From Acidaminococcus massiliensis (lineage in GTDB: Bacteria; Bacillota; Negativicutes; Acidaminococcales; Acidaminococcaceae), in NCBI RefSeq assembly GCF_900095825.1, contig NZ_LT608315.1, positions 1,414,311-1,478,310 of the forward strand: DNA of 64,000 bases, given 5' to 3'. Below, in pieces: positions 3,992 to 39,540 of the stretch; the first letter of the stretch is position 1; every line of letters starts with the position of its first letter. The notes beneath the pieces are model-generated. The model saw only the letters and a program-made list of their open reading frames with translations. It did not search any database and was not told where the DNA came from. A program made the position numbers and the translations under genes.

Positions 3992-3994
3992 AAA

Positions 3995-4540: not shown

Positions 4541-4552
4541 AGGGAGGAAAGT

Positions 4553-17532: not shown

Positions 17533-20500
17533 CCTTCTGGTAAAGATTGGGGCGGATACCTCCGACCTCCGGAAAGAACTCAATGCCACCAAACGGCAGA
17601 TCAAGTCCGCCTTTGGGAGCGAAGCCCTGGACGTGTCCAAGAAATCTCTGGCCGTCTTAGGAGGCATCGGGGCCGGTCTGGCTGCACTGGGGGTGGCATC
17701 TGTGAAAGCGGGGGCCAGCCTCCAGAGCACCAAGACTGCCTTCACCAATATGCTGGGGAGTGCGGAAAAAGCACAGGATTTCCTGGGGAAGATGCAGGAC
17801 TTTGCAGCTAAGACCCCTTTTGAATTCAGCCAGGTGTCCCAGGCGGCCCAGAAGTTCATCGCTTTCGGCTTTTCTGCGGAGCAGGTCATCCCGACTCTTA
17901 CCGCAGTAGGGGATGCGGCGGCTGGCGTTGGCCTCGGGGCGGAAGGCATCAACCGGATTACCTTGGCCCTGGGCCAGATGGCCGCCAAGTCCAAGGTTCA
18001 GGCCGGCGAAATGATACAGCTCACCGAAACGGGGATCCCGGCCTGGAAGATGCTGGCTGACCAGATTGGGGTGTCTGTGCCGGAAGCCATGAGCATGGTG
18101 TCTAAGGGAGCCATTGACGCGGCAACGGGCATCACGGCCCTCGTGAGCGGGATGGAGCAGTCCTTCGGGGGCATGATGGATCAGCAGAGTCAGACCATCA
18201 GCGGCACCTGGTCCACCTTGATGGACGGCTTAGAACAGTCTGCCGCCCAGGTAGGCCTCCAGATTGCAGAAGCCCTGAACCTTACGGGAATCTTTCAGAC
18301 CCTGGGGGATATGCTGACGAACTTTGCGGCCACGGTCCAGTCTTCCGGGCTTACGGAAGCCCTTCTGACGGCCATCCCGCCTGAGTTCCAGGCAGGGATT
18401 CTTCTCATTGTTTCCACCCTAACCGGCCTCGCCATTCCGGCCATCGGGCTCTTTGTGACGAAAGTGACTCTGATGGCCGCTCCTTTTGTGGCGGCGGTAG
18501 CAGCGGCAGCTCCTTTCATTGCTGCAGCGGCAGCGGTGGCCACGGCTCTCTATGCCATCTGGAAAAGCGGGATGACCGTGGAAGATGTGCTGGGGACCAT
18601 GGGCATCAAGATGGAAACGGTCACCCGAGCCGTGGATGCCCTGAAAGAAATGGTCAGCGCAGCGGCCCAGAACATTATCGCCCATCTCCAGGCCCTGGAA
18701 CCGGTGTTCACTCTTGTGGCTGCGGTGATGGGAGCCGCCTTCTATGCCTCCCTGCAGATCATCGGGGCCGTTGTGAACGGGGTGCTGAACTTCATCACTG
18801 TCCTTAGCGAATGTGTCACCTGGATCTTGAACGCTTTCACGTACCTGGTGGAGGGCATCGGGTCCTGTATCGATGAAGTGGGAAGCATCCTGTCCGACAT
18901 GGCTGACAGCATTCTTCCCTCCTGGGCTTCCAGCGGTCTTTCCACCATTGCCAACTTTGTCAGCGAAGCCATCAGCTGGCTCTCCAGCCTGATCCAGAAA
19001 ATCGTGGAAACCAATAATGCCCTGGGTTCCATGGGCGGGGAAGGCGGTGGAGATGGCGGGGGTGGCAGTGCTCCGGCTAAACGGGAATTCAAGCTGCCGG
19101 ACTTTAGCAACCTCCGGGGCAGGGGAGGAGACATCCCGGTTCCTTCAGGAGGAGGCGGAGGCGGCAGTGGTTCTGGCGGTGGTGGCGGACGGGGCGGAAG
19201 CTCCGGAGGTACGGACCAGCTGGCTAGTGCGGCGGCCCAAACCAGCAAGAGCATCGAAGAAGAATGGTTCCGGACCTTCCAGACCAAAAGCGCTCTGGTG
19301 GATCGGTGGTATAAGGAAGAAACGGACGAACTGGAGAAATCCAGGTCCGCCAATGAGAACTATGAACGGGATAAGACTCGTCTGGCAGAGCTGTATGCCC
19401 AGAAGCGGCTGGATGCCCTTTCTGAAGAACAGACCAAAACGAGAGAGCTGATGAACAAGGCCCGGGACCTGTCCTTCGATGCGGTGACGGCGAAAATCAC
19501 TCTCTACGGTTCCAAACAGGAACAGGAAGTCATGAAGATGCAGTCCGACATGGAAAAAGCGGTGGCTTCCATTGATGACAAGTACGCCAAGCTGTCCCAA
19601 GACTTCATTTCTCTGACGGCCAGTGAAAAGGCTGTGTTCCTGAATGCCCTGAAAGAAAAAGGCATCGCCTACGAACAGGCCAGTGCCAACGAAATCGCCT
19701 TTGAAAAACAGGCCAACCTGGAAAAGGCAGCGGCCTACAAAAGCTACATGGAAGAACGGAATGCCTACTTTGCCCAGGGGAAAGACATCCAGGCGGCTCT
19801 GGATGAAGCCTACAACCAGAACTCCCTGGCCATGCTGCAGGAAACCCTTACCGCAGAAATGGCCCTTCGGCAAAGCAACATCGATGCGGAAAAATCCCTG
19901 ATGGATACCTACCAGGAAGCCTATATGAATGCCCATATGGGAACCCTGGAACTCATTGCGGACATGGCATCTACCACCTTAAGCGGCCTGGAGACAGCCT
20001 TTACGGATATCCTGACCGGAGCCAAGAACGCCAAGGATGCTTTCCTGGATCTGGGAAAGGCCATGTTGAAGACCATCGCCAGCTATTTCTCCCAGATGCT
20101 CTCCGGGATGCTGGTGACGGCTCTCTTCGGGGATAAGCTCAATGCGGCCAGTGCCGCCAAGACGGCCGCCCAGGGAACGGCAGCCGCCGGAGCTCTGGCT
20201 CCCGCGGCCTGGCTGAAACTGGTCATCGACCCGTCTGCAGGGCCTGTGGCCACGGGCCTTTTGGCCGGAGGGACTTCTGCGGCAGTTGGCATTGGGATGG
20301 CAGCAGCCGCCACCAACAGTGCAGCAGGGACAGCCGGTGCAGGAAACAAGACACCCCATTATGCCAAAGGTGGGTATTTCACCAGACCTTTAGTCGGGGT
20401 TCTGGGGGATGCCGGTGATGAAGTGGCCCTGCCTCTCAACCGGGCGGTATTCGACAGCATTGCCGAAGGCATTACGAACTCCAGTGAATCCACGGACAGC

Positions 20501-20614
20501 CGGGAAATGAACACCACGTTCAATAACTACGGGGACATCAACAATGCCGCCGATCTGGATGATCTGATGGATGGTTTTACGGATGCTGTGTTGGCCGGAC
20601 TGAGAGGGGCGTGA
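17516..20614 (+). CDS. Tape measure protein
   Basis: 1032 aa from ATG 17516 (AAGGAGATGA upstream). The N-terminal 35 residues (DLLVKIGADTSDLRKELNAT) are the usual start of tape measures. A TMP core around AKTPFEFSQVSQAAQKFIAFG follows, then hydrophobic segments between about residues 285 and 355 (Ala/Val-rich) and 400-440. A Gly-rich linker lies at about residues 500-575 and a long helical region follows. The C-terminus contains KGGYFTRPLVGVLGDAGDEVALPL. It sets tail length and helps DNA cross the envelope. Confidence 0.92.
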   Translation: MATIADLLVKIGADTSDLRKELNATKRQIKSAFGSEALDVSKKSLAVLGGIGAGLAALGVASVKAGASLQSTKTAFTNMLGSAEKAQDFLGKMQDFAAKTPFEFSQVSQAAQKFIAFGFSAEQVIPTLTAVGDAAAGVGLGAEGINRITLALGQMAAKSKVQAGEMIQLTETGIPAWKMLADQIGVSVPEAMSMVSKGAIDAATGITALVSGMEQSFGGMMDQQSQTISGTWSTLMDGLEQSAAQVGLQIAEALNLTGIFQTLGDMLTNFAATVQSSGLTEALLTAIPPEFQAGILLIVSTLTGLAIPAIGLFVTKVTLMAAPFVAAVAAAAPFIAAAAAVATALYAIWKSGMTVEDVLGTMGIKMETVTRAVDALKEMVSAAAQNIIAHLQALEPVFTLVAAVMGAAFYASLQIIGAVVNGVLNFITVLSECVTWILNAFTYLVEGIGSCIDEVGSILSDMADSILPSWASSGLSTIANFVSEAISWLSSLIQKIVETNNALGSMGGEGGGDGGGGSAPAKREFKLPDFSNLRGRGGDIPVPSGGGGGGSGSGGGGGRGGSSGGTDQLASAAAQTSKSIEEEWFRTFQTKSALVDRWYKEETDELEKSRSANENYERDKTRLAELYAQKRLDALSEEQTKTRELMNKARDLSFDAVTAKITLYGSKQEQEVMKMQSDMEKAVASIDDKYAKLSQDFISLTASEKAVFLNALKEKGIAYEQASANEIAFEKQANLEKAAAYKSYMEERNAYFAQGKDIQAALDEAYNQNSLAMLQETLTAEMALRQSNIDAEKSLMDTYQEAYMNAHMGTLELIADMASTTLSGLETAFTDILTGAKNAKDAFLDLGKAMLKTIASYFSQMLSGMLVTALFGDKLNAASAAKTAAQGTAAAGALAPAAWLKLVIDPSAGPVATGLLAGGTSAAVGIGMAAAATNSAAGTAGAGNKTPHYAKGGYFTRPLVGVLGDAGDEVALPLNRAVFDSIAEGITNSSESTDSREMNTTFNNYGDINNAADLDDLMDGFTDAVLAGLRGA

Positions 20615-20981: not shown

Positions 20982-21260
20982 ATGAAGAATATGAAAGCTA
21001 TGGCGATGACCCTGGCCCTGGTGGCCGGCATTACGGGAATGGCTTTTGCCGCCGACATCCGGGAAATCGTGGGGGACCCTGGCACCGGAATCACGGACCG
21101 GAACCCCACCTGCTACCAGAGTCGGATGGTCAACGGCCACCTGATTGAATCCTACGTGGAAAATGACGTGACCATCACCAAACAGGATGGTGATGTGGTG
21201 ATTCTGTACGAAATTGATCATGGGGACTTTGTTCCCTTTGACCAGGATTCAAACAACTGA
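20982..21260 (+). CDS. Small secreted/periplasmic protein
   Basis: 92 aa. Clear Sec signal peptide MKNMKAMAMTLALVAGITGMAFA with cleavage after AFA. The mature part, about 68 residues, is acidic and has two Asp-rich patches. AAAGGAGAG precedes the ATG. Exported proteins within tail operons may alter the lysogen surface, for example by blocking superinfection, but nothing in this sequence proves it. It lies downstream of the tandem hairpins that end the zinc-ribbon cassette. Confidence 0.6.
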   Translation: MKNMKAMAMTLALVAGITGMAFAADIREIVGDPGTGITDRNPTCYQSRMVNGHLIESYVENDVTITKQDGDVVILYEIDHGDFVPFDQDSNN

Positions 21261-21294
21261 TAGAAACGGCAGCGTGGGCCAGGAGGTGAAGCGC

Positions 21295-22080
21295 ATGTTT
21301 CCGGAGCGAAGAGAAAACGAACAGAATTTCACCATCACCAAAGATGGGGTGGAATACAAGCTTCCGGTCCACTGGAGCCTGTCGGATAGCGGCAGCTACA
21401 CCTTCCGGAATAAGCTCCAGTCCCGGGCCTTTGCCCACGGCAGTGATGTGGTGGGGGACGGGAAGATTGACGGCCGGACCCTCCAGGTGGAGTTTTCCAT
21501 GGAAGGGGCTACGGAAGAAGACCATGATGAGGTGCTGAACGAAGCCTATACCTTCTTTGGCCAGACCGACTATTCCCTGATGGCAGGCCGGCCGGACCGG
21601 GTCTACCATGTGGCCTGCCTGTCGAAAATCAAGCACAAGTTCGAGAACGGGTTCAAGCAGAGACGGAGCAACATCACCGTGTCCCTTCTCCTGGCCGACC
21701 CCTTCCGGTATGAAGCCCAGGAATCTCGGGTGGTGTTCACTTTTCCCCAGGCTACGGTCCAGGCGGAAATGGTCCTCCACAACCTGGGAAGCGTGGATAC
21801 GCCTCTTACCTTCCGCTTTATCCCCCTGGACCGGATGACGAATCTCACCGTCTGGCACCAGGAGGCCAAAGAGAAGTTCACCCTCACCGATGCCCTCCTG
21901 GTGGCCCTCAAGACTTCCATCGTAAATGGCAGGGAAGGGACAGTCTGGCGGGATAAGGACAACAGCATCAACGCCTTTACCGGAACATTCCTCCACGCCA
22001 AGCCGGGAGCCAATCTGTTCCTTTACACAGGGGGAGCCGGGACAGTGGAAATCACGTATACCAACAGGTGGTTTGTGTAA
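21295..22080 (+). CDS. Distal tail protein (Dit-like)
   Basis: Start ATG 21295 after AGGAGGTGAA. 261 aa: an N-terminal beta-rich half with FRNKLQSRAFAHGSDVVGDG and LLLADPFRYEAQE at about residue 135, then a galectin-like C-terminal half ending AGTVEITYTNRW. This is the organisation of siphophage Dit proteins, the hub joining the tube to the tail tip. It follows the tape measure apart from the inserted small genes. Confidence 0.8.
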   Translation: MFPERRENEQNFTITKDGVEYKLPVHWSLSDSGSYTFRNKLQSRAFAHGSDVVGDGKIDGRTLQVEFSMEGATEEDHDEVLNEAYTFFGQTDYSLMAGRPDRVYHVACLSKIKHKFENGFKQRRSNITVSLLLADPFRYEAQESRVVFTFPQATVQAEMVLHNLGSVDTPLTFRFIPLDRMTNLTVWHQEAKEKFTLTDALLVALKTSIVNGREGTVWRDKDNSINAFTGTFLHAKPGANLFLYTGGAGTVEITYTNRWFV

Positions 22081-22528: not shown

Positions 22529-22542
22529 GTTGGGTGGAGGAA

Positions 22543-23787
22543 ATGACGAATTTTATCTTTGGACGGGGCCTGTTCGGCCGGTGGATCTTTGCTGGACCTA
22601 TTGGTGAAGGAGAAGGCAGCAGCGACCGGGGCAAGGTCCATGAGTACTATCCCGGCCAGTTCGTGGTCTATGCCTACAAAAAGGACGGGACCCGGACGGC
22701 CATTTTCGGGGGTGGAAGCGAAGCCAATGCCCTGAATGAGGTGACCTTTGAAATCACCAGCACCGGCTGCGGCCAGTGCCAGCTGACCTTTTACCGGCAG
22801 CCCGACAATGCCCAGATGGACTATATGCAGCGCATCGACATTCATCTGTATGGAGACCGGAAGCCCTGGTACAGCGGCTACATCATCAGCCGGCCCATCG
22901 AGGGGACAACGGACCCCAAGTTCGTGTACAAAGGCTACGGCTTCTACAACCGTCTGGAGAATGTGATGCTCTGGAAGACCTACGAGAACACGGATGTAGG
23001 AGACATCGTCCGGGACATCGCCCGGCAGGTGGAGCGCCAGACCCTCCAGGTGGTCTACAACGACAGCAAGATCCAGAGTGTAGGGTACAGTCCTACGAAA
23101 CTGGTCTTTGACGGGGTGACTGTAAAAGAAGCCCTGAACACCCTGGCAGACTTTGCGGTGGATTATGTGTACGGGGTGGATGAATATCGTTGCCTGTATT
23201 TTCGCCGTAGAGAGACTTCCGTCAACGAACAGGCTCGTCTGACCGTGGGAAAACACATCACCTCCTACACTCCTTCCTGGGATGTGTCCAAACTGGTGAA
23301 CTGGGCACGGATCAAGGGCGGCAGTGTGGACGACCAGGGGGAACAGTGGCTCTGCATTGTGGAAGACAAGGACAGCCAGAACAGCTACGGGGTCCACCAG
23401 GCGGTCTGGAATCTTCCGGAAGCCTATGATGCAGCCGATGCCCAAAGGTGGGGAGAAAATCAGATCAGCCAGTACAAGGCCCCGGTAAAATCCGCCAAAA
23501 TCAGCGGCGTCCGGCTGGAATATCCCTACCCGGATGGAACCTTTAACGTCCGCCATATGTCCACGGAGGGCCTTGCGGAAATCCGGAGACTGGACGGGAA
23601 CGCGGATACGTATCCCATCAAGAAAATCAAGTATACCCTGTCTGGGGAAAACGGCATCAAGACAGAGATGGAACTGGGCGAGCCTCAGTTTTCCGTGGAC
23701 CGATACCTGTCCGACATCGAACGCCGGTCCAAGGATATCGAGCAGTCCCAGTCTTCGGCCCTGAAACAATGGAAAGGAGGCAGCTGA
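22543..23787 (+). CDS. Tail hub protein (Gp37-like / baseplate hub)
   Basis: 414 aa. ATG 22543 follows GGAGG. The body resembles siphovirus ReqiPepy6 Gp37-like proteins: a beta-rich start (FEITSTGCGQCQLTFYR), RIDIHLYGDRKPWYSGYIISRP, and the helix-rich VKEALNTLADFAVDYVYGVDE. Such proteins are structural relatives of gp27/Tal hub domains. No lytic domain is present. Immediately coupled (ATG overlaps the stop) to the next gene. Confidence 0.72.
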   Translation: MTNFIFGRGLFGRWIFAGPIGEGEGSSDRGKVHEYYPGQFVVYAYKKDGTRTAIFGGGSEANALNEVTFEITSTGCGQCQLTFYRQPDNAQMDYMQRIDIHLYGDRKPWYSGYIISRPIEGTTDPKFVYKGYGFYNRLENVMLWKTYENTDVGDIVRDIARQVERQTLQVVYNDSKIQSVGYSPTKLVFDGVTVKEALNTLADFAVDYVYGVDEYRCLYFRRRETSVNEQARLTVGKHITSYTPSWDVSKLVNWARIKGGSVDDQGEQWLCIVEDKDSQNSYGVHQAVWNLPEAYDAADAQRWGENQISQYKAPVKSAKISGVRLEYPYPDGTFNVRHMSTEGLAEIRRLDGNADTYPIKKIKYTLSGENGIKTEMELGEPQFSVDRYLSDIERRSKDIEQSQSSALKQWKGGS

Positions 23788-24422
23788 TGGCCATTCATGA
23801 TTATCGGTTTGACCCGTTTGAAAATACTTTCAACATCAAAAAGATCTATGACGAAACCCACGTGATCCCCAGCAACAGTCCGTACACCATCCGGCTGACG
23901 GAAGTGCCCCAGAAGACTTCTCCTACTACCTTGCAGGTGAAGTTCCAGAACGGGGCGCTCCTTACGGAGGTGTCGGAAGAACCGGCCCAGGGACAGTACT
24001 GGCCGGACTATCTCACTACAGAGCATGGCATCGAGGGATGGAATACCGGGACGCTGAAGTTTTCGGCAGCTGACGCGGGAAAGACCGTCCTTGTCACCTA
24101 TAACGGGATGGGGACCCTGACCGATGACCGGCTCATCGACCAGGTGGAGATCGCCGTCACTTCCAGTACCCAGCCGGAGCGGGAGGCCACGGTAAGCGAT
24201 GTGAGTTCCTGGGACAATACCATCACTTCCGGCCCGGAGCGGCATTCTTTTACCACCACCCGGGGAAGGCTCAAGACCCACCGGGGCATCCCGGCCGGAA
24301 CCTACTCCCTGCGGCGGATCCTGCAGGAATTGGTGAACCGTTCCCATACCCAGGAATATACCCGGGAAATCATCTATTCCAACTGTGACTGCGACTGTAC
24401 CGATGATTCGGGAGGAGGCTAA
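23787..24422 (+). CDS. Tail protein with Cys/Asp-rich C-terminal tag
   Basis: 211 aa, start ATG 23787 after AAAGGAGG. A beta-rich body (PYTIRLTEVPQKTSPTTLQVKF) is followed by a helical stretch. The last residues, SNCDCDCTDDSGGG, are strikingly like the ends of the two Cys-rich proteins at 27347 and 27719 (NCNCDCSDDS and ECNCSDDS). It is probably a tail-tip or baseplate component. The shared tail suggests it is treated by the same enzymes or binds the same partner. Confidence 0.6.
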   Translation: MAIHDYRFDPFENTFNIKKIYDETHVIPSNSPYTIRLTEVPQKTSPTTLQVKFQNGALLTEVSEEPAQGQYWPDYLTTEHGIEGWNTGTLKFSAADAGKTVLVTYNGMGTLTDDRLIDQVEIAVTSSTQPEREATVSDVSSWDNTITSGPERHSFTTTRGRLKTHRGIPAGTYSLRRILQELVNRSHTQEYTREIIYSNCDCDCTDDSGGG

Positions 24423-24423
24423 T

Positions 24424-24759
24424 ATGCTGGTCATTGACGAAAATAAGAATATCCAGGTGTCCCAGTACGACACTTTTTCCATTCGGTTCCGCTTCACCAA
24501 TTACAAGCTGACCCCTGCAGACAAAGTGGTCTTTGCCATTAAGAAGACCACCAACTCTTCCGAAGTGGTCTACACGGATACCTTCTACAATCCGGACAAC
24601 AACTATGTGGATGTGGTGGTACCCAAGGGAGCCCTGGATTCCCTGGAACCCGGGGCCTACATCTACGACCTGGCCATTATGAACAGCGAGACGGAGCGGA
24701 TCCTTACCTGCTTCTTTACCAAGTCTTTCATCATCAAGGGGGTGGCCCACAATGTCTGA
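24424..24759 (+). CDS. Small tail-tip / baseplate adaptor protein
   Basis: 111 aa, start ATG 24424 with GGGAGGAGG upstream. The sequence ISQYDTFSIRFRF-type opening and KVVFAIKKTTNSSEVVYTDTF resemble the N-terminal adaptor domain of BppU-like baseplate upper proteins. It is all beta by composition. It precedes and overlaps the fibre gene by eight bases, so it probably docks the fibre. Confidence 0.6.
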   Translation: MLVIDENKNIQVSQYDTFSIRFRFTNYKLTPADKVVFAIKKTTNSSEVVYTDTFYNPDNNYVDVVVPKGALDSLEPGAYIYDLAIMNSETERILTCFFTKSFIIKGVAHNV

Positions 24760-26251
24760 TGCGGCCAATGTGGAAGTGACCCTTACGGTCCAGAACAACA
24801 CGGAAGTGGAACTGGGGGATGTGGCTGACGGGTACGCCGCCGATCAGGCACGGGCCTATCGGGACAAGGCCGGGGAATATGCGGCGGATGCCTTAAACAG
24901 CAAGAACATGGCAGAAGCCTGGGCGGAAAGCGACAGCGCACCGGCTGGAGAAGGAACCCGGTCCAGTAAGTCGTGGAGTGAGGCATCCCAGCAGTGGGCG
25001 GAAAGTTCCACTAATCCAGATGGCGTCACCGGAGCACGTTCCGCCAAGTCTTGGTCTGAAACGGCTCGGGCCTGGGCGGAAAGTGACGGAGAGCCGGACG
25101 GGGTCACAGGAGCCAGGTCCGCCAAAAGCTGGGCCACGGTTTCCTCCCAAAAAGCAGCGGAAGCCGAAACCAGTGCCAAAGCGGCGGACGCCAGTGCCAA
25201 GGCTTCTGCTAATAGTGCGGCTGAAGCGAAGAATTCGCAAGAAAGTGCAACCACCCAGGCCACCCTGGCAAAACAAAGTGCCGACAGTGCGGCAGAGAAA
25301 CTGGCCCAGATGCAGATCGACCTGAAGTTGAAGGCGGATGTGGATAGCGCCATTCTTACGGGAACCCCTGCAGCCCCTACTCCGGCAGAAGATGCCCAAA
25401 GTACACAGATTGCCAATGTGGCCTATGTAAAAGAGAAGATTGCCGAGCTGGTGAATGGCTCGGAGGCTTCTCTCGATACCCTGAAAGAACTGGCCGATGC
25501 CCTGGGGAATGACCCGAATTTTGCCACCACCATCATGGAAGCCATCGGGAAAAAGCTGGATGCCACAGCAACCGCCCAGGCCGCTTTGGCCGATGGCAAG
25601 GGCAACAACATTGCAGAAACCTATGCCACAAAGGAAGAACTCACCGGGGAAACAGGGACCCTTGCTGCAGTAGCCAAAAGCGGCAGTTACACGGATCTCC
25701 TGGACAGACCGGTGATTCCGGATAAGACAAGTCAGCTGACCAACGACAGCCGATATGTTTCCACGGATGCCAACGGGAATGTGACTCTCACCGGGACCCT
25801 CACCGCCACGAAAGTCTACAACGCGGTCTATAACGACTACGCTGAATTCTTCCCTCGGGGTGGTGACACCCAGCGGGGGGACATTATCGCCCTGGACGAA
25901 ACTTCGAATAAAGAGCAATACAGCAAGGCAACGTCCAGCAGCCAGTGTGTGGTGGGGGTCCATACGGAAGACTTTGCCTCCATCATCGGCGGTCGTACCC
26001 TTTCTCCGGGAGATGACATCTTAAAGACGAACCTGCCCGCCTACATCCCGGTAGCCCTGGCCGGCCGTGTCCCGGTCCGGATGTATGGGAAAGCCCGGAA
26101 GGGAGGCTGGGTCATCCCTTCGGAGATGCCGGGCGTAGGCCGGATGGCCCTGGAAGGAGAAAGCCTCACCCAGGCGGTGGGGCAGATCGTGAAGGACGAT
26201 ACCGCAGAAAACGTGCGGCTGGTGAAAATCATCGTAAGGAGTGGAAGATGA
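24752..26251 (+). CDS. Tail fibre with SKSWSE repeats and C-terminal G2-like domain
   Basis: 499 aa. Residues about 50-130 carry three imperfect repeats of the type SAKSWSETARAWAESD. A long Ala-rich coiled coil (AEAETSAKAADASAKAS) follows, then phage fibre repeat sequence (AYVKEKIAELVNGSEASLDT, ELADALGNDPNFATTI). A C-terminal region VYNDYAEFFPRGGDTQRGDII... resembles the peptidase G2 / intramolecular-chaperone domain that trims fibres. It is the likely receptor-binding fibre. Its stop overlaps the ATG of the radical SAM gene. Confidence 0.82.
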   Translation: MSDAANVEVTLTVQNNTEVELGDVADGYAADQARAYRDKAGEYAADALNSKNMAEAWAESDSAPAGEGTRSSKSWSEASQQWAESSTNPDGVTGARSAKSWSETARAWAESDGEPDGVTGARSAKSWATVSSQKAAEAETSAKAADASAKASANSAAEAKNSQESATTQATLAKQSADSAAEKLAQMQIDLKLKADVDSAILTGTPAAPTPAEDAQSTQIANVAYVKEKIAELVNGSEASLDTLKELADALGNDPNFATTIMEAIGKKLDATATAQAALADGKGNNIAETYATKEELTGETGTLAAVAKSGSYTDLLDRPVIPDKTSQLTNDSRYVSTDANGNVTLTGTLTATKVYNAVYNDYAEFFPRGGDTQRGDIIALDETSNKEQYSKATSSSQCVVGVHTEDFASIIGGRTLSPGDDILKTNLPAYIPVALAGRVPVRMYGKARKGGWVIPSEMPGVGRMALEGESLTQAVGQIVKDDTAENVRLVKIIVRSGR

Positions 26252-27372
26252 AATATTTAAGAAGGAACATCAACACCGTATTCCTCATGCTGGGGAATTC
26301 CTGCAATATGAACTGTGCCTACTGCCTCCAGCACCCTCTGGTGCATAAACCTTTGACCCGGGAGGTGAATCCCGAAATCTATGACTTCCTGGGAGAAGTG
26401 GCCCAAGAGAATCCCCGGACTCTTCACCTGCAGTTTTATGGCGGGGAGCCTCTTTTGTACTTTAGAACCATCCGAGAAGTGGTGGAAGAAATCGAAAAAA
26501 GAAAAATTCCCATGACCTTTGGCATCATCACCAATGGCCGGGCACTGACGGACGAAATGGTCCGTTTTTTTCATGCCCATCAGTTCTCCGTCACCCTTTC
26601 CTGGGACGGGCCTCACGTCTTGGAAACGAGAGGCTATGATGTGTTTTCCGTCCCGGAAACCCGGGAGCGGATCCTGGCCCTGGAGCATCTCTGTCTGTCC
26701 GGGGTGCTATCCGCCAGGGCCTATCCCCGGGAAATCCTCCAGGCTTTCCAGCAGATTTCAGAAGAGTACCGTGCCATCATCCATGGCTACCAGGTTGCGG
26801 TGAACCTGGACGAAATCATGGATACGGGGCTGCCTCAAAAGGATCTCCTGGAAATCGACTGCGGCCGGGTGGAGCGGGAGATGGAAGACATGACCCTCCG
26901 GTTCCTGGAGGGCTTCGGGAAACGGGTCCAGCCGGAGCGGTACACGGAAGAAGCCTATATCCGGCAGCTGTTCCACTGTTTGAAAGACTTCTATCTTACG
27001 GGGAAAGGGAAATGGGACCGATATACGGCAGCCTGCGGAAACGGGCTCACGGTGCTGAACCTGGACCTTGAGGGGAACCTGTATCCCTGCCACAACACTT
27101 CCCGGAAGGCAGGTTCCATCCATGACGGGTACTTCACTTACCTGCAGCACATCCTGGCGGGGGATCATACCCACGAACACCGGAAAGAGTGCCTTTCCTG
27201 CACGGCCCTTGCCTTCTGCCAGGGTGGCTGCAAGCTGGTGGGGGATAAGGCCCGGAAGGCATCCTACTGCCGGCTGAAGCAGGCCGTCTTTACCCCGGTC
27301 CTTATGACCATCCAGCAGTACGGGCAGGAGATTTTGGAGAAAAGCCATGGCGAAAAACGGAACCATCAATAA
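26248..27372 (+). CDS. Radical SAM/SPASM enzyme 1
   Basis: 374 aa. Cluster motif CNMNCAYC at residues 17-24 (CxxxCxxC) binds the 4Fe-4S that cleaves SAM. YGGEPLLY and TNGRAL are the following core motifs. A SPASM-type auxiliary cluster region is visible at CGNGLTVLNLDLEGNLYPCH...ECLSCTALAFCQGGCKLV...YCRL. Related enzymes (anSME, PqqE, sactisynthases) modify peptides or proteins. The ATG overlaps the fibre stop, and its 3' end overlaps the first Cys-rich gene by 26 bases. The substrate is therefore probably that protein or the tail itself. Confidence 0.9.
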   Translation: MKYLRRNINTVFLMLGNSCNMNCAYCLQHPLVHKPLTREVNPEIYDFLGEVAQENPRTLHLQFYGGEPLLYFRTIREVVEEIEKRKIPMTFGIITNGRALTDEMVRFFHAHQFSVTLSWDGPHVLETRGYDVFSVPETRERILALEHLCLSGVLSARAYPREILQAFQQISEEYRAIIHGYQVAVNLDEIMDTGLPQKDLLEIDCGRVEREMEDMTLRFLEGFGKRVQPERYTEEAYIRQLFHCLKDFYLTGKGKWDRYTAACGNGLTVLNLDLEGNLYPCHNTSRKAGSIHDGYFTYLQHILAGDHTHEHRKECLSCTALAFCQGGCKLVGDKARKASYCRLKQAVFTPVLMTIQQYGQEILEKSHGEKRNHQ

Positions 27373-27706
27373 GACGACCTTTACCGATACAGCCGCCATC
27401 ACAGATTCCAGCGACCTTAAAGTGAAGGCCATCCACGTGACGGAACTGCAGACGGCTCTGACCCAGCTCACATCCTATGCCGCCAACGTGGACAACTGCG
27501 GGAACTGCGTGTACTGCCAGACTTGCCAGGGGTGCCAGACCTGCCAGAAATGCCAGAGCAGCAGCTGCCAGTCCACGTCCTGCCAATCCTGCCAGAGCAT
27601 CTCCCAATGCAGCCAGCGGGACTGTACCTGCCAAACACGGGGCCAGTGTGACTGTAACTGCAACTGCAGCGGAAGCAGCGAATGCAATTGTTCGGACGAC
27701 TCCTAA
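27347..27706 (+). CDS. Cys-rich repeat protein 1, putative radical-SAM substrate
   Basis: 119 aa with 19 Cys, none in the first 50 residues. The N-terminal part contains KVKAIHVTELQTALTQL, similar to a short helix motif found in tail-fibre and surface proteins. The C-terminal part runs CGNCVYCQTCQGCQTCQKCQ, then degenerates (CQSSSCQSTSCQS) and ends DCNCNCSGSSECNCSDDS. The leader-plus-core layout resembles a RiPP precursor, but the size and tail context allow a structural role. A metal-binding repeat protein is the main alternative. Translation is coupled to the radical SAM gene. Confidence 0.75.
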   Translation: MAKNGTINKTTFTDTAAITDSSDLKVKAIHVTELQTALTQLTSYAANVDNCGNCVYCQTCQGCQTCQKCQSSSCQSTSCQSCQSISQCSQRDCTCQTRGQCDCNCNCSGSSECNCSDDS

Positions 27707-27718
27707 GGTGGTGAAACT

Positions 27719-28078
27719 ATGGCGGAAACAGGAGAAAACGTCTTAAAGAAGCATCTGACAGATGTGCAGTCCGGCCTTGAGACCCTATCTACCAAGACGA
27801 AGGTGAGCATCGACCTGTCTTCCCTGGATTACGCCCAGGTGAAGAAGGTCAACATCAAGGTACTGGATGCGGCCATCAACAAACTGGAAGAAAACTTTTC
27901 GGGGAACTGCTGCCAGGCCAACTGCTGTCAGACCTGCCAGAGCTGCCAGGGATGCCAGACATGCCAAACCTGTCAGGGCTGCCAGACATGTCAGGGATGC
28001 CAGGGGTGCCAGACCTGTCAGAAGTGCCAGTATTACATGACGTTCAACTGCAACTGTGACTGCAGTGACGATAGCTAA
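27719..28078 (+). CDS. Cys-rich repeat protein 2, putative radical-SAM substrate
   Basis: 119 aa, 18 Cys, all after residue 62. The N-terminal 60 residues are helical and Lys-rich; QVKKVNIKVLDAAINKLEENF aligns with the equivalent segment of the preceding protein. The core is NCCQANCCQTCQSCQGC and further CQT/CQG triplets up to CQKCQYYMTFNCNCDCSDDS, i.e. a run of twelve Cys spaced every third residue. Such 3-residue periodicity would place all Cys on one face of an extended or collagen-like/polyproline helix. AAGGTGGTG precedes the ATG. Paralogue of the 27347 protein. Confidence 0.75.
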   Translation: MAETGENVLKKHLTDVQSGLETLSTKTKVSIDLSSLDYAQVKKVNIKVLDAAINKLEENFSGNCCQANCCQTCQSCQGCQTCQTCQGCQTCQGCQGCQTCQKCQYYMTFNCNCDCSDDS

Positions 28079-28093
28079 GGAGGAACGGAAAAG

Positions 28094-28498
28094 ATGATCA
28101 TTGCCAAAGGAAACGTGCAGACAGCAGAAGGACCGGTTCCCGTGGAGAAACTGGAACCAGGGATGCTGGTGGTGGACCGGGGCCACAGGGCTAGGAAACT
28201 CCTCAAAGTGGAACAGGTCCAGCTCCATCAGACCCTTCACTTTGAGAAAAATACCGAGCTGGTCCTGGCAGGGAACAGTGTCCTTTTCACCCTTACCGGG
28301 CTGCGGAGTGCCATCAGCCTGAAGAATGTGCGGAAAGCCCTGAACGGGCGGATCCAGATGTTCTTCCAGACATCTCGGGTCCAGGATGATGTGATGAAAG
28401 TGAAGAAGGAAGAAGTGACCGGCTATCGGCTGACCATTGAAGGGGGCCGGGATGTGCTGGTGAACGGATATGATGTGGCGGACCGGGAGGTGGAATGA
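28094..28498 (+). CDS. Degenerate Hint-like domain protein
   Basis: 134 aa. The opening GNVQTAEGPVPVEKLEPGMLVVD follows the Hint (hedgehog/intein) block-A spacing (T-x-x-G-x-x-x-V-x-x-L-x-x-G), and the end YRLTIEGGRDVLVNGYDVAD follows the block F/G pattern. The catalytic N-terminal Cys/Ser and the final His-Asn are absent. If the assignment is right, the fold is kept but protein splicing is lost. It may be a binding scaffold for the adjacent Cys-rich proteins. Moderate certainty only. Preceded by AAGGAGG. Confidence 0.5.
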   Translation: MIIAKGNVQTAEGPVPVEKLEPGMLVVDRGHRARKLLKVEQVQLHQTLHFEKNTELVLAGNSVLFTLTGLRSAISLKNVRKALNGRIQMFFQTSRVQDDVMKVKKEEVTGYRLTIEGGRDVLVNGYDVADREVE

Positions 28499-29337
28499 TG
28501 CTGAAGATTTATTACAACGAAGAATCCAACGCGGACCATGTGGTCCATTTAACCTTGAGCGGGGACTTCTGCAAAGTGGAGTGCAGCAGTGCCATTGACG
28601 GCCGGGCTGGATCGGATGCCATTGAGAATCTTCGTCCTTATAGCTCTTATGCCCTGACGGAAAGCAACGGGACGGTAAAAATCTTCCGGCAGCCCATGCA
28701 GTCCGACTACCGGTTCCTGGATCTGAACCGGCTGGGGGTATCCATCCGCATGGACTTTGCCATCCTGACCCAGCTGTATGGGAACTATACCATCCTCAGC
28801 GTAGACACGGGCATTCTGGCAGACAGGGAACGGGATATTGTGGTCCGGCTCTTTAGCGGGAAGAAGGAGAACTTCACCATCGAAGCGGACCAGGAATATG
28901 AGCTACTGCCCTTCAGTACCAGCGACCTGATCCTGGGAGACCATCCCCGGATGAAACTGTGGGACAGCTACAGCCTTTCCGCCGGGGGCCGGGAGCTCAT
29001 GGCCAACAGGAAAGGGGACCTCATTGATGGGGATCCGGAGGAACCATTCTTTCCCGAAGAAGGTAAAGAGTATATCGACTTCACCATTCAGAAATACAAA
29101 GGGGACTTTTCCACCAAAGAAAAGCTCACCCGGGACATCGATGACGAGGAGGTCTTCGTGGATGCTTCCGCAGGCCTTGTGAACAAACGCCGGATTAAAT
29201 TGGACCACGGGACGGGAAGTTTCCGGCTGTACCCCTTCGGTGTGGAAGGGCCAGTGAAAATCAAGCTGGGCCGGAAATGGTACGAGGTATGGAACGACTA
29301 TTTTGTCTTTATCGGAAAGGGGGAGCGGCATGGCTGA
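28495..29337 (+). CDS. Unknown protein of the radical SAM cassette (beta-rich)
   Basis: 280 aa, ATG overlapping the previous stop (ATGATG). No known domain recognised. The sequence alternates hydrophobic and polar residues and seems largely beta (VVHLTLSGDFCKVECSSAIDG; IRMDFAILTQLYGNYTILSV). It has an acidic linker DGDPEEPFFPEEGKE near residue 180 and a C-terminal beta part. It overlaps the second radical SAM gene by eight bases. It is likely either a tail-tip structural protein or a partner of that enzyme. Confidence 0.55.
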   Translation: MMLKIYYNEESNADHVVHLTLSGDFCKVECSSAIDGRAGSDAIENLRPYSSYALTESNGTVKIFRQPMQSDYRFLDLNRLGVSIRMDFAILTQLYGNYTILSVDTGILADRERDIVVRLFSGKKENFTIEADQEYELLPFSTSDLILGDHPRMKLWDSYSLSAGGRELMANRKGDLIDGDPEEPFFPEEGKEYIDFTIQKYKGDFSTKEKLTRDIDDEEVFVDASAGLVNKRRIKLDHGTGSFRLYPFGVEGPVKIKLGRKWYEVWNDYFVFIGKGERHG

Positions 29338-30271
29338 ACCACGGAAAGTGACCCTCTACCTGGGGAGTCAGTGCAATCTCCACTGTGCCTACTGCCATCG
29401 GGAAGCCTCCAGTGATGAACAGGGCATTTCCAATAAATTTCTGGAAGAACTGAAACGCAATCCTCCCGGGGCCATCAAGTTCATGGGTGGGGAGCCCCTG
29501 CTCTATATGGACGAAATCCGGAAAGTAGTCCGTGCGGTTCCCGGGGCCAAGTTTTCCCTCAGCACCAACGGCATCGGCATAGCAAAACACCTGGACTATT
29601 TGCGGCAGCACGGTTTCCAGATCTGCATCAGCTATGACGGGGCGGAGAAAGACCTGCGGGGCTACGACCCTTTTACGGACCTTCTGGATTACCCGAATGT
29701 GGCCGTATCCACCACTCTGTACCATGGCAACACAGACCTGGGGGCCATCATGGAGCGGTTCCGAGAGAAGGAGAAAGTCATCGGACGGTCCCTTTCCTTT
29801 TTCCCTCATCTCCTTCATGTGACCAATGAAGCCAACCGGAAATATGCCTTGACGGAAGCCGACTACGATTCTCTCCTGGAACAGTACAAAAAGTACGTGG
29901 GGCTGTACCTGTCCCGGTTCCGGAGGTTCGGCATCCGGGACAAGCGGTATGAAGGACTCTACCAGACCCTGGAACGGCGGAGCAAGGCACACTATACCTA
30001 TGGGGAAACCTACTGTAGCAACCGGAAGCTGCGGAAGGTGGATGCCAAAGGGCAGTCCTATCCCTGTCTGTACATCCGGAAAGAGAAACTGGGGAAGGAA
30101 TGGCTGAACGATCAGAAAAGGCTGCTGGATGCCTTGAGTCCAGCCTGCCGCCAGTGCCCTGTCTACGACATGTGCGGCGGGGCCTGCATCGTGAGCAAGG
30201 AGCATGAACTGGAGTGCCGGTTCTGCAAGGCTCTCTACACCTGGTTCAAGAAGGAAGGGAGCCAGCCATGA
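29330..30271 (+). CDS. Radical SAM/SPASM enzyme 2
   Basis: 313 aa. ATG 29330 follows AAGGGGGAG. CNLHCAYC at about residues 15-22 is the SAM-cluster motif, with FMGGEPLLY and STNGIGIAKH following. C-terminal auxiliary Cys: YCSNRKL, YPCLYI, CRQCPVYDMCGGACIV and CRFCKAL. It is shorter than and only distantly similar to enzyme 1, so the two probably perform different steps or act on different substrates. Overlaps both neighbours, so it is part of the same transcript. Confidence 0.88.
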   Translation: MAEPRKVTLYLGSQCNLHCAYCHREASSDEQGISNKFLEELKRNPPGAIKFMGGEPLLYMDEIRKVVRAVPGAKFSLSTNGIGIAKHLDYLRQHGFQICISYDGAEKDLRGYDPFTDLLDYPNVAVSTTLYHGNTDLGAIMERFREKEKVIGRSLSFFPHLLHVTNEANRKYALTEADYDSLLEQYKKYVGLYLSRFRRFGIRDKRYEGLYQTLERRSKAHYTYGETYCSNRKLRKVDAKGQSYPCLYIRKEKLGKEWLNDQKRLLDALSPACRQCPVYDMCGGACIVSKEHELECRFCKALYTWFKKEGSQP

Positions 30272-30918
30272 ATTCCCTCTTTATCTTCCCAGAAGCCATC
30301 CATACAAAGGATACCATTGCCTTGGACCTGGATGGGAACCGGATGAGCTTTTTCTGCAATAGTGAACGCGTGTTCATCGACCTTGCGGCCCTGCGGAGCG
30401 GTTCCTCTACGGTGATCCTGAAGAACCCCATCACCGGGACCGTCTATCCCTTGTTCAATTTCCGGGAAATCCTCCAGGTGATGGACATGGGGCCTCAGGA
30501 ATTTTTGCGTGTCCTGCAGATTACCTCTTATATGCAGATCGACAAGTCCGGGATGGATACCTTTATCAAGGTGTTCCTGCCCAAGGGGCAGAAAGAACTC
30601 AACAGCCGCACCCATGACTTTTCCCGCTTTCCCCATGTGCCTCTTACTGACCTCCATAAGCTGGACCGGGCCTACAGCTGGACGGTCAGGAAGGTGAAGG
30701 CCCAGATCCATTATGGCCGGATTGAGGGGTCCCTGGTGTTAGAGCGCTCCGGGTTCTGGAAGGAGCCGGTGTATGTGAGCCATGCCGGCCAGACAAAGGA
30801 ACTCACGGAAGGGGAGAACACCTTCTCCTTTTCCTGGAGCCCAACAGAAGACGTGTACTGCGGACCGAAATGCGGACGGTACAAAGGCCGGGCCCTTCAT
30901 GTGACGCCCGGCCGCTAA
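30268..30918 (+). CDS. Unknown protein of the radical SAM cassette
   Basis: 216 aa, start ATG 30268 overlapping the enzyme 2 stop. Unrecognised. The first 60 residues (IALDLDGNRMSFFCNSERVFI) look like a beta sandwich; a central helical region follows, and a C-terminal beta part ends DVYCGPKCGRYKGRALHVT with two Cys in CGPKC. Last gene of the cassette before the lysis genes. It may be a tail-tip cap or an enzyme partner. Confidence 0.5.
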   Translation: MNSLFIFPEAIHTKDTIALDLDGNRMSFFCNSERVFIDLAALRSGSSTVILKNPITGTVYPLFNFREILQVMDMGPQEFLRVLQITSYMQIDKSGMDTFIKVFLPKGQKELNSRTHDFSRFPHVPLTDLHKLDRAYSWTVRKVKAQIHYGRIEGSLVLERSGFWKEPVYVSHAGQTKELTEGENTFSFSWSPTEDVYCGPKCGRYKGRALHVTPGR

Positions 30919-31241: not shown

Positions 31242-31543
31242 GAGGCTGGCTCAATAAGGGTCTTGGGGCTGTGAAGAAACGGCTTAACCAGTTCCAGCAG
31301 CCCATCAAATGGATCGTCATCGGGTATATGGTGACGGTCTTTCTTTTTGTGGTTTCCTATTATGGCTTCTGGGTCTATCTGGCAGTGACGGGGAAAATCC
31401 AGCTGCCGGACCTTCTGGCTATGATACGGGAACTGGTAGGGCCTGCCATGGTAGGGTTCATCACCTTCATTGCAGGCTGCTTTGTGGATCTTGACGGGAA
31501 CGGGATCCCGGATCATTTTGAAAAGGAGAAGGATAAACCATGA
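31226..31543 (+). CDS. Holin-like protein, two transmembrane helices
   Basis: 105 aa. Two hydrophobic helices: residues about 28-52 (IKWIVIGYMVTVFLFVVSYYG) and 70-88 (GPAMVGFITFIAGCFV). Short basic N-terminus and charged, acidic C-terminus. It directly precedes and overlaps the endolysin gene, which is the usual holin-endolysin order. Holin function is inferred from topology and context. Confidence 0.7.
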   Translation: MFEKVRGWLNKGLGAVKKRLNQFQQPIKWIVIGYMVTVFLFVVSYYGFWVYLAVTGKIQLPDLLAMIRELVGPAMVGFITFIAGCFVDLDGNGIPDHFEKEKDKP

Positions 31544-32094
31544 AGATTTACATCAATCCGGGCCATATGCCCGGTGTGGACAGCGGGGCCGTCAACGAAG
31601 AACATGGGGTCACCGAAGCGGGTATCGTGAAGGAAATCGGGGCAGGGGTTCAGCAGTACCTGAACCGGGTGGGCTATGACTGTATGCTGGTCCAGTCCGA
31701 CAACCTCTGCGGGGAATCCCCCAACTATACCAACATCTGTGCCAGCGCCAACGGGTGGAAGGCGGACCTCTTTATTTCCATCCACTGCAATGCGGCAGCC
31801 GCAGAAGAAGCCCAGGGAACGGAAACTCTGGTGCACAGTGAGGACAGCGAGGAAGCCTATGCCCTGGCCGAATGCATCCAGAACCAGATCGTCCAGAGCC
31901 TGGGGACCGTGGACCGGGGTGTGAAGGAACGTCCGGGTCTGGCTGTGCTCCGGGAAACGGATATGCCGGCTGTCCTTGTGGAGACGGCTTTCATCACCAA
32001 TGAGGACGATGTGCAGCTCCTGATGAATCGGAAGGACGAATTTGCTCGTGCCATCGCCCGTGGGGTGACGGATTATGTGGCCAAGAAAGGATGA
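31540..32094 (+). CDS. Endolysin: N-acetylmuramoyl-L-alanine amidase (Amidase_3)
   Basis: 184 aa. Zinc amidase motifs: YINPGHMPGVDSGA (first His), GIVKEIGAG (Glu), LFISIHCNAA (second His) and AVLVETAFITNEDD (catalytic Glu). It has no signal peptide and no binding domain, so it depends on a holin to reach peptidoglycan. It cleaves the amide bond between MurNAc and the stem peptide. Confidence 0.92.
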   Translation: MKIYINPGHMPGVDSGAVNEEHGVTEAGIVKEIGAGVQQYLNRVGYDCMLVQSDNLCGESPNYTNICASANGWKADLFISIHCNAAAAEEAQGTETLVHSEDSEEAYALAECIQNQIVQSLGTVDRGVKERPGLAVLRETDMPAVLVETAFITNEDDVQLLMNRKDEFARAIARGVTDYVAKKG

Positions 32095-37975: not shown

Positions 37976-39540
37976 TGAAAAAAGTACATGTAATACCAGC
38001 TTCAATTCAAAAGTATTCAGAGAAACCTCTGGATCGTCATTGCAAACGAAAGGTCGCAGGCTATGCAAGAGTTTCAACAGATCATGATGACCAGCTTACC
38101 AGTTATGAAGCCCAGGTCGATTATTATACTCATTACATCAAAAGCCGATCCGATTGGGAATTTATTGGGATGTATACAGATGAGGGTATCTCGGCCACTA
38201 ACACAAAATATAGAGAAGGTTTCAAACGGATGATAGAGGATGCCCTTTCTGGGAAAATCGATCTAATTATTACTAAGTCCGTTAGCCGTTTTGCACGGAA
38301 TACGGTGGACAGTTTAATGACGGTCCGTAAATTGAAGGAAAAGGGCATCGAAATCTATTTTGAAAAGGAAAATATTTGGACATTAGACGCCAAAGGGGAA
38401 CTCCTCATTACGATTATGAGCTCCTTAGCACAGGAAGAAAGTCGTAGTATTTCAGAGAATGTTACTTGGGGACATAGAAAACGATTTGCTGATGGAAAAG
38501 TTAGTCTCGCATATAGTCATTTCCTTGGATATGAGAGAGGGGTAGATGGCAATCTAGTAATTAATAAGGAACAGGCAGAGACTGTAAAAGAAATATATCG
38601 TTTATTTCTTAGCGGATTCACATATCATTCTATTGCACGCAAATTAACTGAAAAAGGTATTAAAAGCCCAGCCGGAAAAGATTCTTGGTGTGCTGGAACA
38701 GTACGAAGCATTTTAACTAATGAAAAATATAAAGGGGATGCTCTTTTACAGAAAAGACTTACTGTCAATTTCCTTACGAAAGAAATGAAGATCAATGAAG
38801 GTGAAGTCCCACAGTATTATGTGGAACACAATCATGAAGCCATTATAAGTCCTCAAGTTTTTGATTTGGTGCAGGAAGAGATTTTGAAACGGAAGTCAGG
38901 AAAAACACGGTACAGTGGGATATCTATCTTCTCAACAAAAATCAAATGTGGACAATGTGGGAGTTGGTATGGTGCTAAGATATGGCATTCTAATGATTCG
39001 TACCGCAGAGAAATATACCAATGTAATAGTAAATTTAAAAATCACTGTAACACACCACATCTTACGCCAGAAAGAATAAAAGAAATTTTTGTGAGTGCCG
39101 TTAACAAGCTGATAACAAACAAAAATGAAATTATTGAGAACTTAGAAATGATTCGACAGCAACTATGCCAAACAAAGTCCCTTGAAAAGGAACGAGAACA
39201 TTTGAAACAGGATATGTTAATTCTTTCTGAAATAATAAAAAAGAATATTGCCGAGAATGCTAGAATTGCACAGAATCAAAATGAGTATGAGAAAAAATAT
39301 GATGGTTTAATGAACAAGTACAATAAAATGAAAAATAAATACGAAATAATATTAGATAAAATCAAAAAACAGCAAGCACGCAATACGCAGATAGTAGAAT
39401 TTATTGATCGAATTAAAAAACAAGGTAATATCACTGAATTTAACGAATATTTGTGGGCAAGCCTGGTAGATTTCATTACAGTATACAATGAACAAAATAT
39501 ACGGATAACATTTCGGGATGGGACGGAGATAAAGGTATAA
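37975..39540 (+). CDS. Large serine recombinase 2
   Basis: 521 aa, complete. Resolvase domain KRKVAGYARVSTDHDDQLTSY with catalytic Ser, TKSVSRFARNTVDSL, and LAQEESRSISENVTWG. Recombinase domain about residues 170-290, zinc ribbon KCGQCGSWYGA...YQCNSKFKNHCN, and a long C-terminal coiled coil (about 390-480) typical of large serine integrases. Start overlaps the preceding frame by one base. AT-rich codon use. Confidence 0.9.
   Translation: MKKVHVIPASIQKYSEKPLDRHCKRKVAGYARVSTDHDDQLTSYEAQVDYYTHYIKSRSDWEFIGMYTDEGISATNTKYREGFKRMIEDALSGKIDLIITKSVSRFARNTVDSLMTVRKLKEKGIEIYFEKENIWTLDAKGELLITIMSSLAQEESRSISENVTWGHRKRFADGKVSLAYSHFLGYERGVDGNLVINKEQAETVKEIYRLFLSGFTYHSIARKLTEKGIKSPAGKDSWCAGTVRSILTNEKYKGDALLQKRLTVNFLTKEMKINEGEVPQYYVEHNHEAIISPQVFDLVQEEILKRKSGKTRYSGISIFSTKIKCGQCGSWYGAKIWHSNDSYRREIYQCNSKFKNHCNTPHLTPERIKEIFVSAVNKLITNKNEIIENLEMIRQQLCQTKSLEKEREHLKQDMLILSEIIKKNIAENARIAQNQNEYEKKYDGLMNKYNKMKNKYEIILDKIKKQQARNTQIVEFIDRIKKQGNITEFNEYLWASLVDFITVYNEQNIRITFRDGTEIKV

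Follow-up and report, generated by a model that had tools for sequence, protein, structure and literature searches.

The window analysed here, the whole stretch of 64,000 nucleotides from contig NZ_LT608315.1 of Acidaminococcus massiliensis, contains a siphophage-type prophage in which the structural genes are followed by a cassette and then by the endolysin. Between the tail-tip genes and the lysis genes of this prophage lie the genes for two radical S-adenosylmethionine (SAM)/SPASM enzymes, rS1 and rS2, and for two proteins with Cys-Gln-X (CQx) repeats, CQ1 and CQ2. An initial annotation, made from the sequence alone, had placed the feature at 26248-30918. Its gene set and coordinates were borne out by the open frames, and so was the tight packing, neighbouring genes overlapping or being separated by 12-15 bp. 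Its limits were not, as the feature starts further upstream, at 23787, with a Cys-tailed protein that had been overlooked. This protein ends in alternating Asn or Asp and Cys residues, and such an [ND]C tail is the feature shared among the proposed substrates. The cassette consists of the following genes:

23787-24422, plus strand: tail-region protein of 211 amino acids (aa) ending ...AGTYSLRRILQELVNRSHTQEYTREIIYSNCDCDCTDDSGGG; proposed primary substrate (leader-like segment and [ND]C tail)
24385-24759, plus strand: small conserved tail-region protein, 124 aa (phrog_1084, 3e-8, unknown function)
24752-26251, plus strand: tail fibre protein, 499 aa, no Cys tail in the window (phrog_7032 tail fibre, 1.6e-29)
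26248-27372, plus strand: rS1, radical SAM/SPASM enzyme, 374 aa (PF04055, 1e-9; phrog_1802, 1.9e-36)
27347-27706, plus strand: CQ1, 119 aa, 19 Cys, ends ECNCSDDS; proposed substrate (sequence and alignment)
27719-28078, plus strand: CQ2, 119 aa, 18 Cys, ends FNCNCDCSDDS; proposed substrate (sequence and alignment)
28094-28498, plus strand: Hint-like protein without the Cys nucleophile (PF13403, Hint_2, 5.7e-6, below cut-off)
28495-29337, plus strand: U280, predicted beta-rich with an immunoglobulin (Ig)-like C-terminal domain; cassette core (AlphaFold2 (AF2) model, pLDDT 82.9; fold matches)
29330-30271, plus strand: rS2, second radical SAM/SPASM enzyme, 313 aa from its ATG (PF04055, 1.3e-8; phrog_1802, 7.4e-29)
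30268-30918, plus strand: U216, 216 aa from its ATG, conserved, function unknown, downstream of rS2 (found in 21 of 27 loci searched)

The assignment of both enzymes to the radical SAM/SPASM class was sustained, with PF04055 scores of 39.2 bits (rS1) and 35.6 bits (rS2) against a cut-off of 29.5. Both contain the motif CxxxCxxC, of which Cys19/23/26 are invariant across the rS1 family, and only 18 residues precede the first cluster Cys of rS1. As read from the sequence, both also carry the seven Cys of the SPASM pattern (GX4C, CX2CX5CX3C and a last Cys), invariant in 10 rS1 rows (C263, C281, C315, C318, C324, C328, C341) and in 5 rS2 rows (C229, C246, C273, C276, C282, C286, C296). The best NCBIfam model for both is that of PapB, NF047865 (rS1: 2.6e-32, 112.4 bits; rS2: 2.7e-17, 63.0 bits), whose cut-off of 340 bits neither reaches. 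For rS1 the QhpD model TIGR03906 comes second (2.4e-26, 92.4 bits; cut-off 453), and the SCIFF maturase model TIGR03974 matches at 9.8e-21 (74.1 bits; cut-off 425). The closest solved structure to rS1 is PDB 5wgg, which we take to be CteB (E 1.5e-23, profile positions 8-329, alignment from 5wgg residue 95). These nearest models, the PapB model and PDB 5wgg, represent thioether formers. Among 50,697 phage records, rS1 found distant matches only.

The 211-aa protein is encoded between a YQBQ-like gene and the fibre gene and ends in NCDCDCTDDSGGG, that is, in NCDCDC and a short acidic stretch resembling the ends of CQ1 and CQ2. The tail is preceded by a conserved segment, AGTYxLRxxxQxLxNxS, and both segment and tail are kept in eight aligned sequences, the window included. 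The protein has no Pfam match and no PHROG name (two weak matches, function unknown). Its profile matches Cys-tailed proteins in other loci (designated by L numbers), namely L184 (3.6e-12), L055 (9.6e-10), L110 (4.5e-8) and L054 (7.8e-7), and more weakly L078, L102 and L150 (1e-4 or so), scores which the Cys tail itself may have raised. The fibre protein, confirmed as such by its PHROG match, is without a Cys tail in the window, and its relative in L048 ends in SNCNCDCDCDCDCGDDS, i.e., NCNCDCDCDCDCGDDS.

To follow the tail beyond this family, a viral collection was queried for five [ND]C units with enzymes left out of consideration (at least 120 loci), and enzyme open reading frames (ORFs) were called on the same strand with a profile of 19 seed proteins at E up to 1e-4, the Cys motif being required. 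A script sorted the listed loci into 82 with a C-terminal repeat after at least 60 residues, 9 with a C-terminal repeat on a short frame, 5 with the repeat before an SDxxLK motif and 24 with the repeat elsewhere. An enzyme was present in 69 of the 82 listed loci of the first group, all 13 misses having less than 3 kb downstream; with at least 3 kb downstream, it was found on the same strand in 57/57. Many of the contigs are near-copies, and tails sharing the same 30-residue stretch were hence counted once, which left 42 distinct listed tails with at least 3 kb downstream, every one accompanied by an enzyme. Among the 57 listed loci, the nearest enzyme started 12 to 5389 bases downstream of the tail (median 1287), and the enzyme ORF was partial only in two. 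Where the repeat stood before the S74-type SDxxLK motif, an enzyme was seen in 4/5 listed loci (3/3 with at least 3 kb), in one of the four upstream, and on the very short frames in 2/9 (2/6 with at least 3 kb downstream). No enzyme was found in the 24 listed loci with the repeat away from the C-terminus, 12 of which had at least 3 kb downstream. Applied to the 107 listed loci of a CQx scan (at least 120 loci) that lie outside the CQ family, the same profile detected no enzyme, which serves as the base rate. The 77 enzymes of at least 250 aa from the tail-first loci fall into 38 clusters at 70% identity, or into 9 at 40%.

The reverse direction started from the best 80 loci chosen by the enzyme alone, of which 11 contigs were also in the tail-first sample. 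A tail of at least three [ND]C units lay upstream of the enzyme in 42 of the 61 loci with at least 3 kb upstream and in 1/19 with less; on the opposite strand, it was found in 0/80. Such a tail also appeared in 8/116 listed CQx-scan loci, all eight of the CQ family. Twelve fecal 'Bacteriophage sp.' records, several of which look more like bacterial SCIFF-type contigs than like phages, showed no script-flagged [ND]C repeat and were counted neither way. Six of ten tested tail bearers matched PHROGs tail fibre families at E 0.01, one of them weakly. We regard the partnership of the enzyme with a Cys-ended protein as strongly supported, about as firmly as sequence allows. This partnership bears on a different target for the enzymes, such as a nucleic acid, a cofactor, a lipid or a host protein, with the Cys-ended neighbours reflecting a habit of gene order. 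Some phage radical SAM genes are indeed QueE-like by annotation or lack an [ND]C-tailed protein beside them, Campylobacter phage CPt10 being an example (7 proteins read). Such a target is nevertheless hardly credible, since the pairing holds in both directions, involves enzyme ORFs as diverse as the 38 clusters above and spans different tail-protein architectures, and since the nearest models are those of peptide maturases.

In runs of at least four xC units within the same 80 enzyme-first loci, Cys was preceded by N in 163, by A in 30 and by D in 29 of 235 cases, and the preference for Asn/Asp is therefore no artefact of the [ND] query. These runs are relevant to the idea of a metal tip, in which Cys tails and CQ arrays would bind Fe, Zn or an Fe-S cluster and the enzymes would contribute only a supporting change or metal loading. 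CxC and CxxC are classic metal ligands, metal-tipped phage spikes exist, and runs of alternating xC are frequent around the enzyme (50 runs). A metal site, however, needs no radical SAM enzyme, yet an enzyme accompanies 57/57 listed tails with enough flank, and Asn/Asp precedes Cys in 192/235, a preference that metal binding would not require. We therefore consider a metal tip unlikely.

We conclude that the cassette is probably a virion-maturation system, in which PapB/CteB-like enzymes cross-link Cys to neighbouring Asn/Asp at the C-termini of tail-tip or fibre proteins. These proteins end in a short [Asn/Asp]-Cys run, placed in the window's family after the conserved leader-like segment, and the radical SAM/SPASM enzymes of the phage would act on this run before or during tail assembly. 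The bond formed would most probably be a thioether from the Cys sulphur to a carbon of the adjacent Asn/Asp, much as PapB forms for Cys-Asp/Glu. A ladder of small thioether rings would be the simplest chemistry, because an alternating run puts a donor beside an acceptor at each step. CQ1 and CQ2, with their long Cys-Gln-X arrays and the same kind of end, would be extra substrates in the window's family, and Gln may be the acceptor in their arrays. The two enzymes, which belong to separate clades, would divide the task between them, and U280 and U216 are putative partner proteins. The mature tail protein would then terminate in a compact, acidic tip of cross-linked Cys, and the virion could use this hard or sticky end in adsorption or penetration. 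That the phage installs a radical SAM modification on a Cys-rich tail component had already been proposed in the initial annotation and remains the best reading, given the co-occurrence of enzyme and Cys ends beyond this prophage; the CQ proteins did not prove to be the shared feature.

Radical SAM cross-linking is familiar in small peptides and in a small number of enzymes. With PapB, the cassette has in common the best NCBIfam model of both enzymes, the SPASM motif and, in the proposed substrates, Cys beside acidic or amide residues; it differs in scores far under the PapB cut-off and in that the proposed substrates are C-termini of tail proteins, not small leader-core peptides. In the passages of PMC9413430 consulted, PapB joins Cys to Asp/Glu with loose spacing, forming nested and in-line links. 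The likeness to CteB/ScfB (TIGR03974) lies in PDB 5wgg as the nearest solved structure; rS1, however, is without the N-terminal 94 or so residues, and a SCIFF peptide was not seen beside it. QhpD, the quinohemoprotein amine dehydrogenase maturase and second-best model for rS1, is a precedent in that its radical SAM chemistry cross-links a protein subunit instead of a released peptide, although its substrate is an enzyme subunit and not a phage protein, and rS1 scores 92.4 against its 453 bits. Both enzymes also match phrog_1802, to which the annotation of phage 2-1 assigns its own enzyme and JWF gp030, but this family is named just 'radical SAM domain-containing protein', without a substrate.

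In other phages, various arrangements bring the repeat to the future C-terminus: at the true end, before a Hint domain or before an S74 domain. The fibres of the Achromobacter phages JWF and 2-1 contain NCNCDCNCNCS and NCNCDCNCS, respectively, each followed directly by CFPAGT, and in both the Hint domain starts at exactly the Cys after the repeat (Pfam, 3e-12 and 5e-12). In JWF gp028, which matches a PHROGs tail fibre family, the fused domain scores 47.5 bits against the 32.1 bits of its own family PF05203, with Cys at the first position. Weaker Hint matches follow the repeat in L341 and L319, and an S74 chaperone domain (1.4e-4) starts two residues past the repeat in L079. Hint and S74 domains are known to self-cleave, and the repeat would therefore become the end of the protein. 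A close JWF-type enzyme (E up to 1e-10) occurs only in JWF (two records) and 2-1 among the 50,697 phage records, which may be why the pattern has perhaps gone unremarked so far. Downstream of the enzyme in L369, L372, L379 and L384, an [ND]C repeat is followed by a further C-terminal part (SKIICTKLYELG-like); in L369 and L384, this part has no Pfam or PHROGs match and is possibly a further type of cap.

The Hint-like protein of the window stood only in part. Its Hint_2 match has the E value listed above, yet at 27.2 bits it stays below the curated 28.4, and the protein starts MIIAKG, with no Cys at the nucleophile position of Hint domains. Its profile gave no match to the fused Hint domains of JWF or 2-1, both in the searched set, and the kinship of these proteins accordingly goes no further than a common Pfam superfamily. 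It may be the relic of a cap, or a partner derived from one, without direct sequence kinship.

A wider version of our reading is that many tailed-phage lineages have carbon-sulphur cross-linked [Asn/Asp]-Cys tips, with Hint or S74 domains in some lineages as caps whose removal lays open the finished tip, and with CQx or C[ST]GxC arrays as amplified versions, a generalization that we offer tentatively and hold to be about as apt to fail as to succeed, if not slightly more so. The C[ST]GxC-like arrays come from the jumbo phages SPN3US (Salmonella) and Wellington (Erwinia), which resemble the window in having two adjacent radical SAM genes with Cys-array proteins upstream and differ in their repeat, which is neither [ND]C nor CQx, and in their distant enzymes on long branches. 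Each has two related array proteins of about 130-142 aa with 20-23 Cys and a short third one (L318, SPN3US, 3986-5024; L317, Wellington, 4021-5078). The annotation of SPN3US gives none of the three in its own frame, either passing over them or placing a feature of another frame on top, and that of Wellington lists two of three as hypothetical proteins. In its annotated form, the first SPN3US enzyme is without the cluster motif; its annotated start is probably wrong, because the protein match starts 75 bases upstream. Radical SAM is not mentioned in the passages of PMC3556154 and PMC5259590 consulted.

Among the close relatives of the cassette, the order CQ1, CQ2, Hint-like, U280, rS2 is kept in 9/9 IMG/VR loci found by rS1, and L001 is 99-100% identical to the window. 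The co-occurrence of both enzymes with CQ proteins, proposed earlier as a check, thus holds in these nine loci and fails in L048, L053 and L184, where no CQ gene was found next to rS1, U280, rS2 and U216. Among 27 loci, a set that includes copies (L009/L276 are one contig; L051/L219 give identical figures), rS1, U280, rS2 and U216 occur together wherever the stretch is long enough; the distant loci L052 and L054-L056 are exceptions, with an enzyme but neither U280 nor U216. The loci with a named source come from Acidaminococcus fermentans, A. provencensis, three metagenome-assembled genomes (MAGs), two of Phascolarctobacterium and one of Acidaminococcaceae, and a further MAG that bears the label Ruminococcus. 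A relative of rS1 at 1e-30 was present in 12/380 genomes of the class, including 5/9 of the genus, which points to a patchy, prophage-like spread.

CQ1 and CQ2 have the lengths and Cys counts given earlier and consist, as described in the initial annotation, of a Cys-free N-terminal part followed by the CQx repeat; their equal length is chance, since relatives span about 98 to 137 aa. Judging from a tblastn match between the two genes in L001 (2.5e-7, partly via the repeat), they are related to each other. In alignments of 17 other rows each, among them a few near-copies such as L009/L276, Cys columns are on average 92% (CQ1) and 96% (CQ2) identical to the window, compared to 60% and 49% for the columns of residues other than Cys and Gln; the arrays conserve Cys above all. 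The Cys-free N-terminal and Cys-rich C-terminal parts, two maturase-like enzymes and a position directly before the lysis genes would also suit a weapon, with CQ1 and CQ2 as toxins or bacteriocins on prophage or virion that resemble ribosomally synthesized and post-translationally modified peptides (RiPPs) and have the enzymes as maturases. The CQ proteins are built like a precursor with leader and core, but the tail also occurs on the 211-aa protein and on fibre-like proteins. The three loci without a CQ gene keep both enzymes, U280 and U216. No transporter, protease or immunity gene was identified in the cassette by family scans. The CQ ends are like that of the tail-region protein, and fibre-like proteins carry the repeat in other phages; a weapon is very unlikely.

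The CQ proteins were also rejected as the core of the system, as they were not found in those three loci, which retain the enzymes. CQx arrays were likewise rejected as a general mark: an enzyme was present in 13/120 listed viral loci with four CQx units, all of the CQ family and several on contigs already sampled, and the other loci look like low-complexity or unrelated frames. Long CQDCRNC-type arrays occur in L207, L262, L265, L274 and L290, where a radical SAM gene was not found in the locus and no link was seen.

U280 is predicted to be a beta-rich protein with an Ig-like end: its modelled fold matches common Ig-like domains (best Z 9.3 over 94 residues) and uncharacterised phage proteins (TM about 0.5-0.6). 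By sequence, nothing credible was found in the PDB and no match among the 50,697 phage records. Weak matches of its profile exist in other [ND]C-tail loci (L134, 9e-6; L161, L065 and others), the one in L134 being positioned between the tail gene and the enzyme.

The cross-linking system could also exist in a version in which rS1 is responsible for the [ND]C tails and rS2 for U280, U216, the fibre or something else, so that no more than half of the cassette would have to do with the Cys proteins. In the tree, the rS2 clade is separate from the rS1 clade, rS2 travels with U280 and U216, and L054 and L110, as far as read, have an rS1-like enzyme beside the tail and no rS2-like one. The two-enzyme pair recurs in L150, where one member groups with rS2 (97/92, long branch), and a division of labour between the two enzymes is therefore likely. 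Every rS2-like row of the tree, however, derives from a locus having a second enzyme too, and no obvious second Cys substrate is at hand, as U280 and U216 hold only 2 and 3 Cys; this particular split of tasks is possible but doubtful.

Several observations weigh against the cross-linking of [ND]C tails as proposed here. PapB acceptors are Asp/Glu in the consulted passages of PMC9413430, while the phage tails are mostly Asn-Cys and the CQ arrays offer Gln. Both enzymes score below the curated cut-offs of all named maturases in NCBIfam, so that homology does not fix the reaction, and rS1 is without the first 94 or so residues of 5wgg, that is, without the N-terminal domain of CteB/ScfB, presumably the peptide-binding domain. 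The placement of L150_b and L084_a, on long branches of the tree, is unsure. The tail found in the window is itself short, with 3 Cys (NCDCDC), the AF2 model of the 211-aa protein (pLDDT 42) gives no usable structure, and in L051 only CQ proteins and no relative of the 211-aa protein were found. A strict tail is missing from 19/61 enzyme-first loci; by eye, nine of these have a looser Cys ending or repeat, four a Cys-rich stretch in a longer downstream protein and six nothing convincing, and a loose Cys count is no control, because the opposite strand also scores in 16/19. The Hint matches span only the first 27-40 of 228 profile positions, and the self-cleavage of Hint and S74 domains enters as general background on these domains. 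Against universality, a related enzyme occurs in CPt10, where none of the 7 neighbours read bears an [ND]C tail; one of them ends CDHESCGCKDSKGI.

If our reading is correct, the cassette represents a covalent, disulphide-independent way of building a tail tip, which bears on adsorption by such phages; the [ND]C tail would be a sequence mark for finding many uncultured phage tail proteins, and the loci a source of new Cys cross-linking enzymes that act on protein substrates. The cassette belongs to a broad class that is apparently undescribed. In accordance with the earlier remark that no such system was known, full-text searches of an open-licence library, which fall short of proof, found no description of one.

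Two further loci deserve mention. A small protein in L052 (8522-9007) with NCDCNCDCDCSSDCDCSSDCDCSSDC and a long terminal Asp-Gly run is encoded beside an enzyme 39% identical to rS1; no tail genes were recognised around it, and this is perhaps a non-phage use. L286 (69-7755) contains a divergent version with a CQ-like protein, U280, both enzymes and a U216-like gene, followed by genes for a second Cys-tailed protein (CNCNCACACCCD) and a protein with a U280-like end.

The surrounding prophage genes are listed below; the endolysin agrees with the earlier statement that the cassette ends at lysis genes.

10043-11644: large terminase
11657-12922: portal
13638-14834: major head protein
17474-20614, plus strand: tail tape measure protein (phrog_12798, 1.5e-199)
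21214-22080, plus strand: distal tail protein Dit (phrog_33, 2.1e-15)
22534-23787, plus strand: tail-region protein, YQBQ-like (PF24032, 3.8e-6, 27 bits, equal to its cut-off; phrog_6185, 2.1e-12, function unknown)
31540-32094, plus strand: endolysin (phrog_435, 4.3e-62)

One protein of the window, at 4553-5809, matches both ParB-like and DNA methyltransferase families (phrog_620, 4e-56; phrog_498, 1.6e-163). Past the lysis genes, the G+C content falls to 0.32 at 38001-40000.

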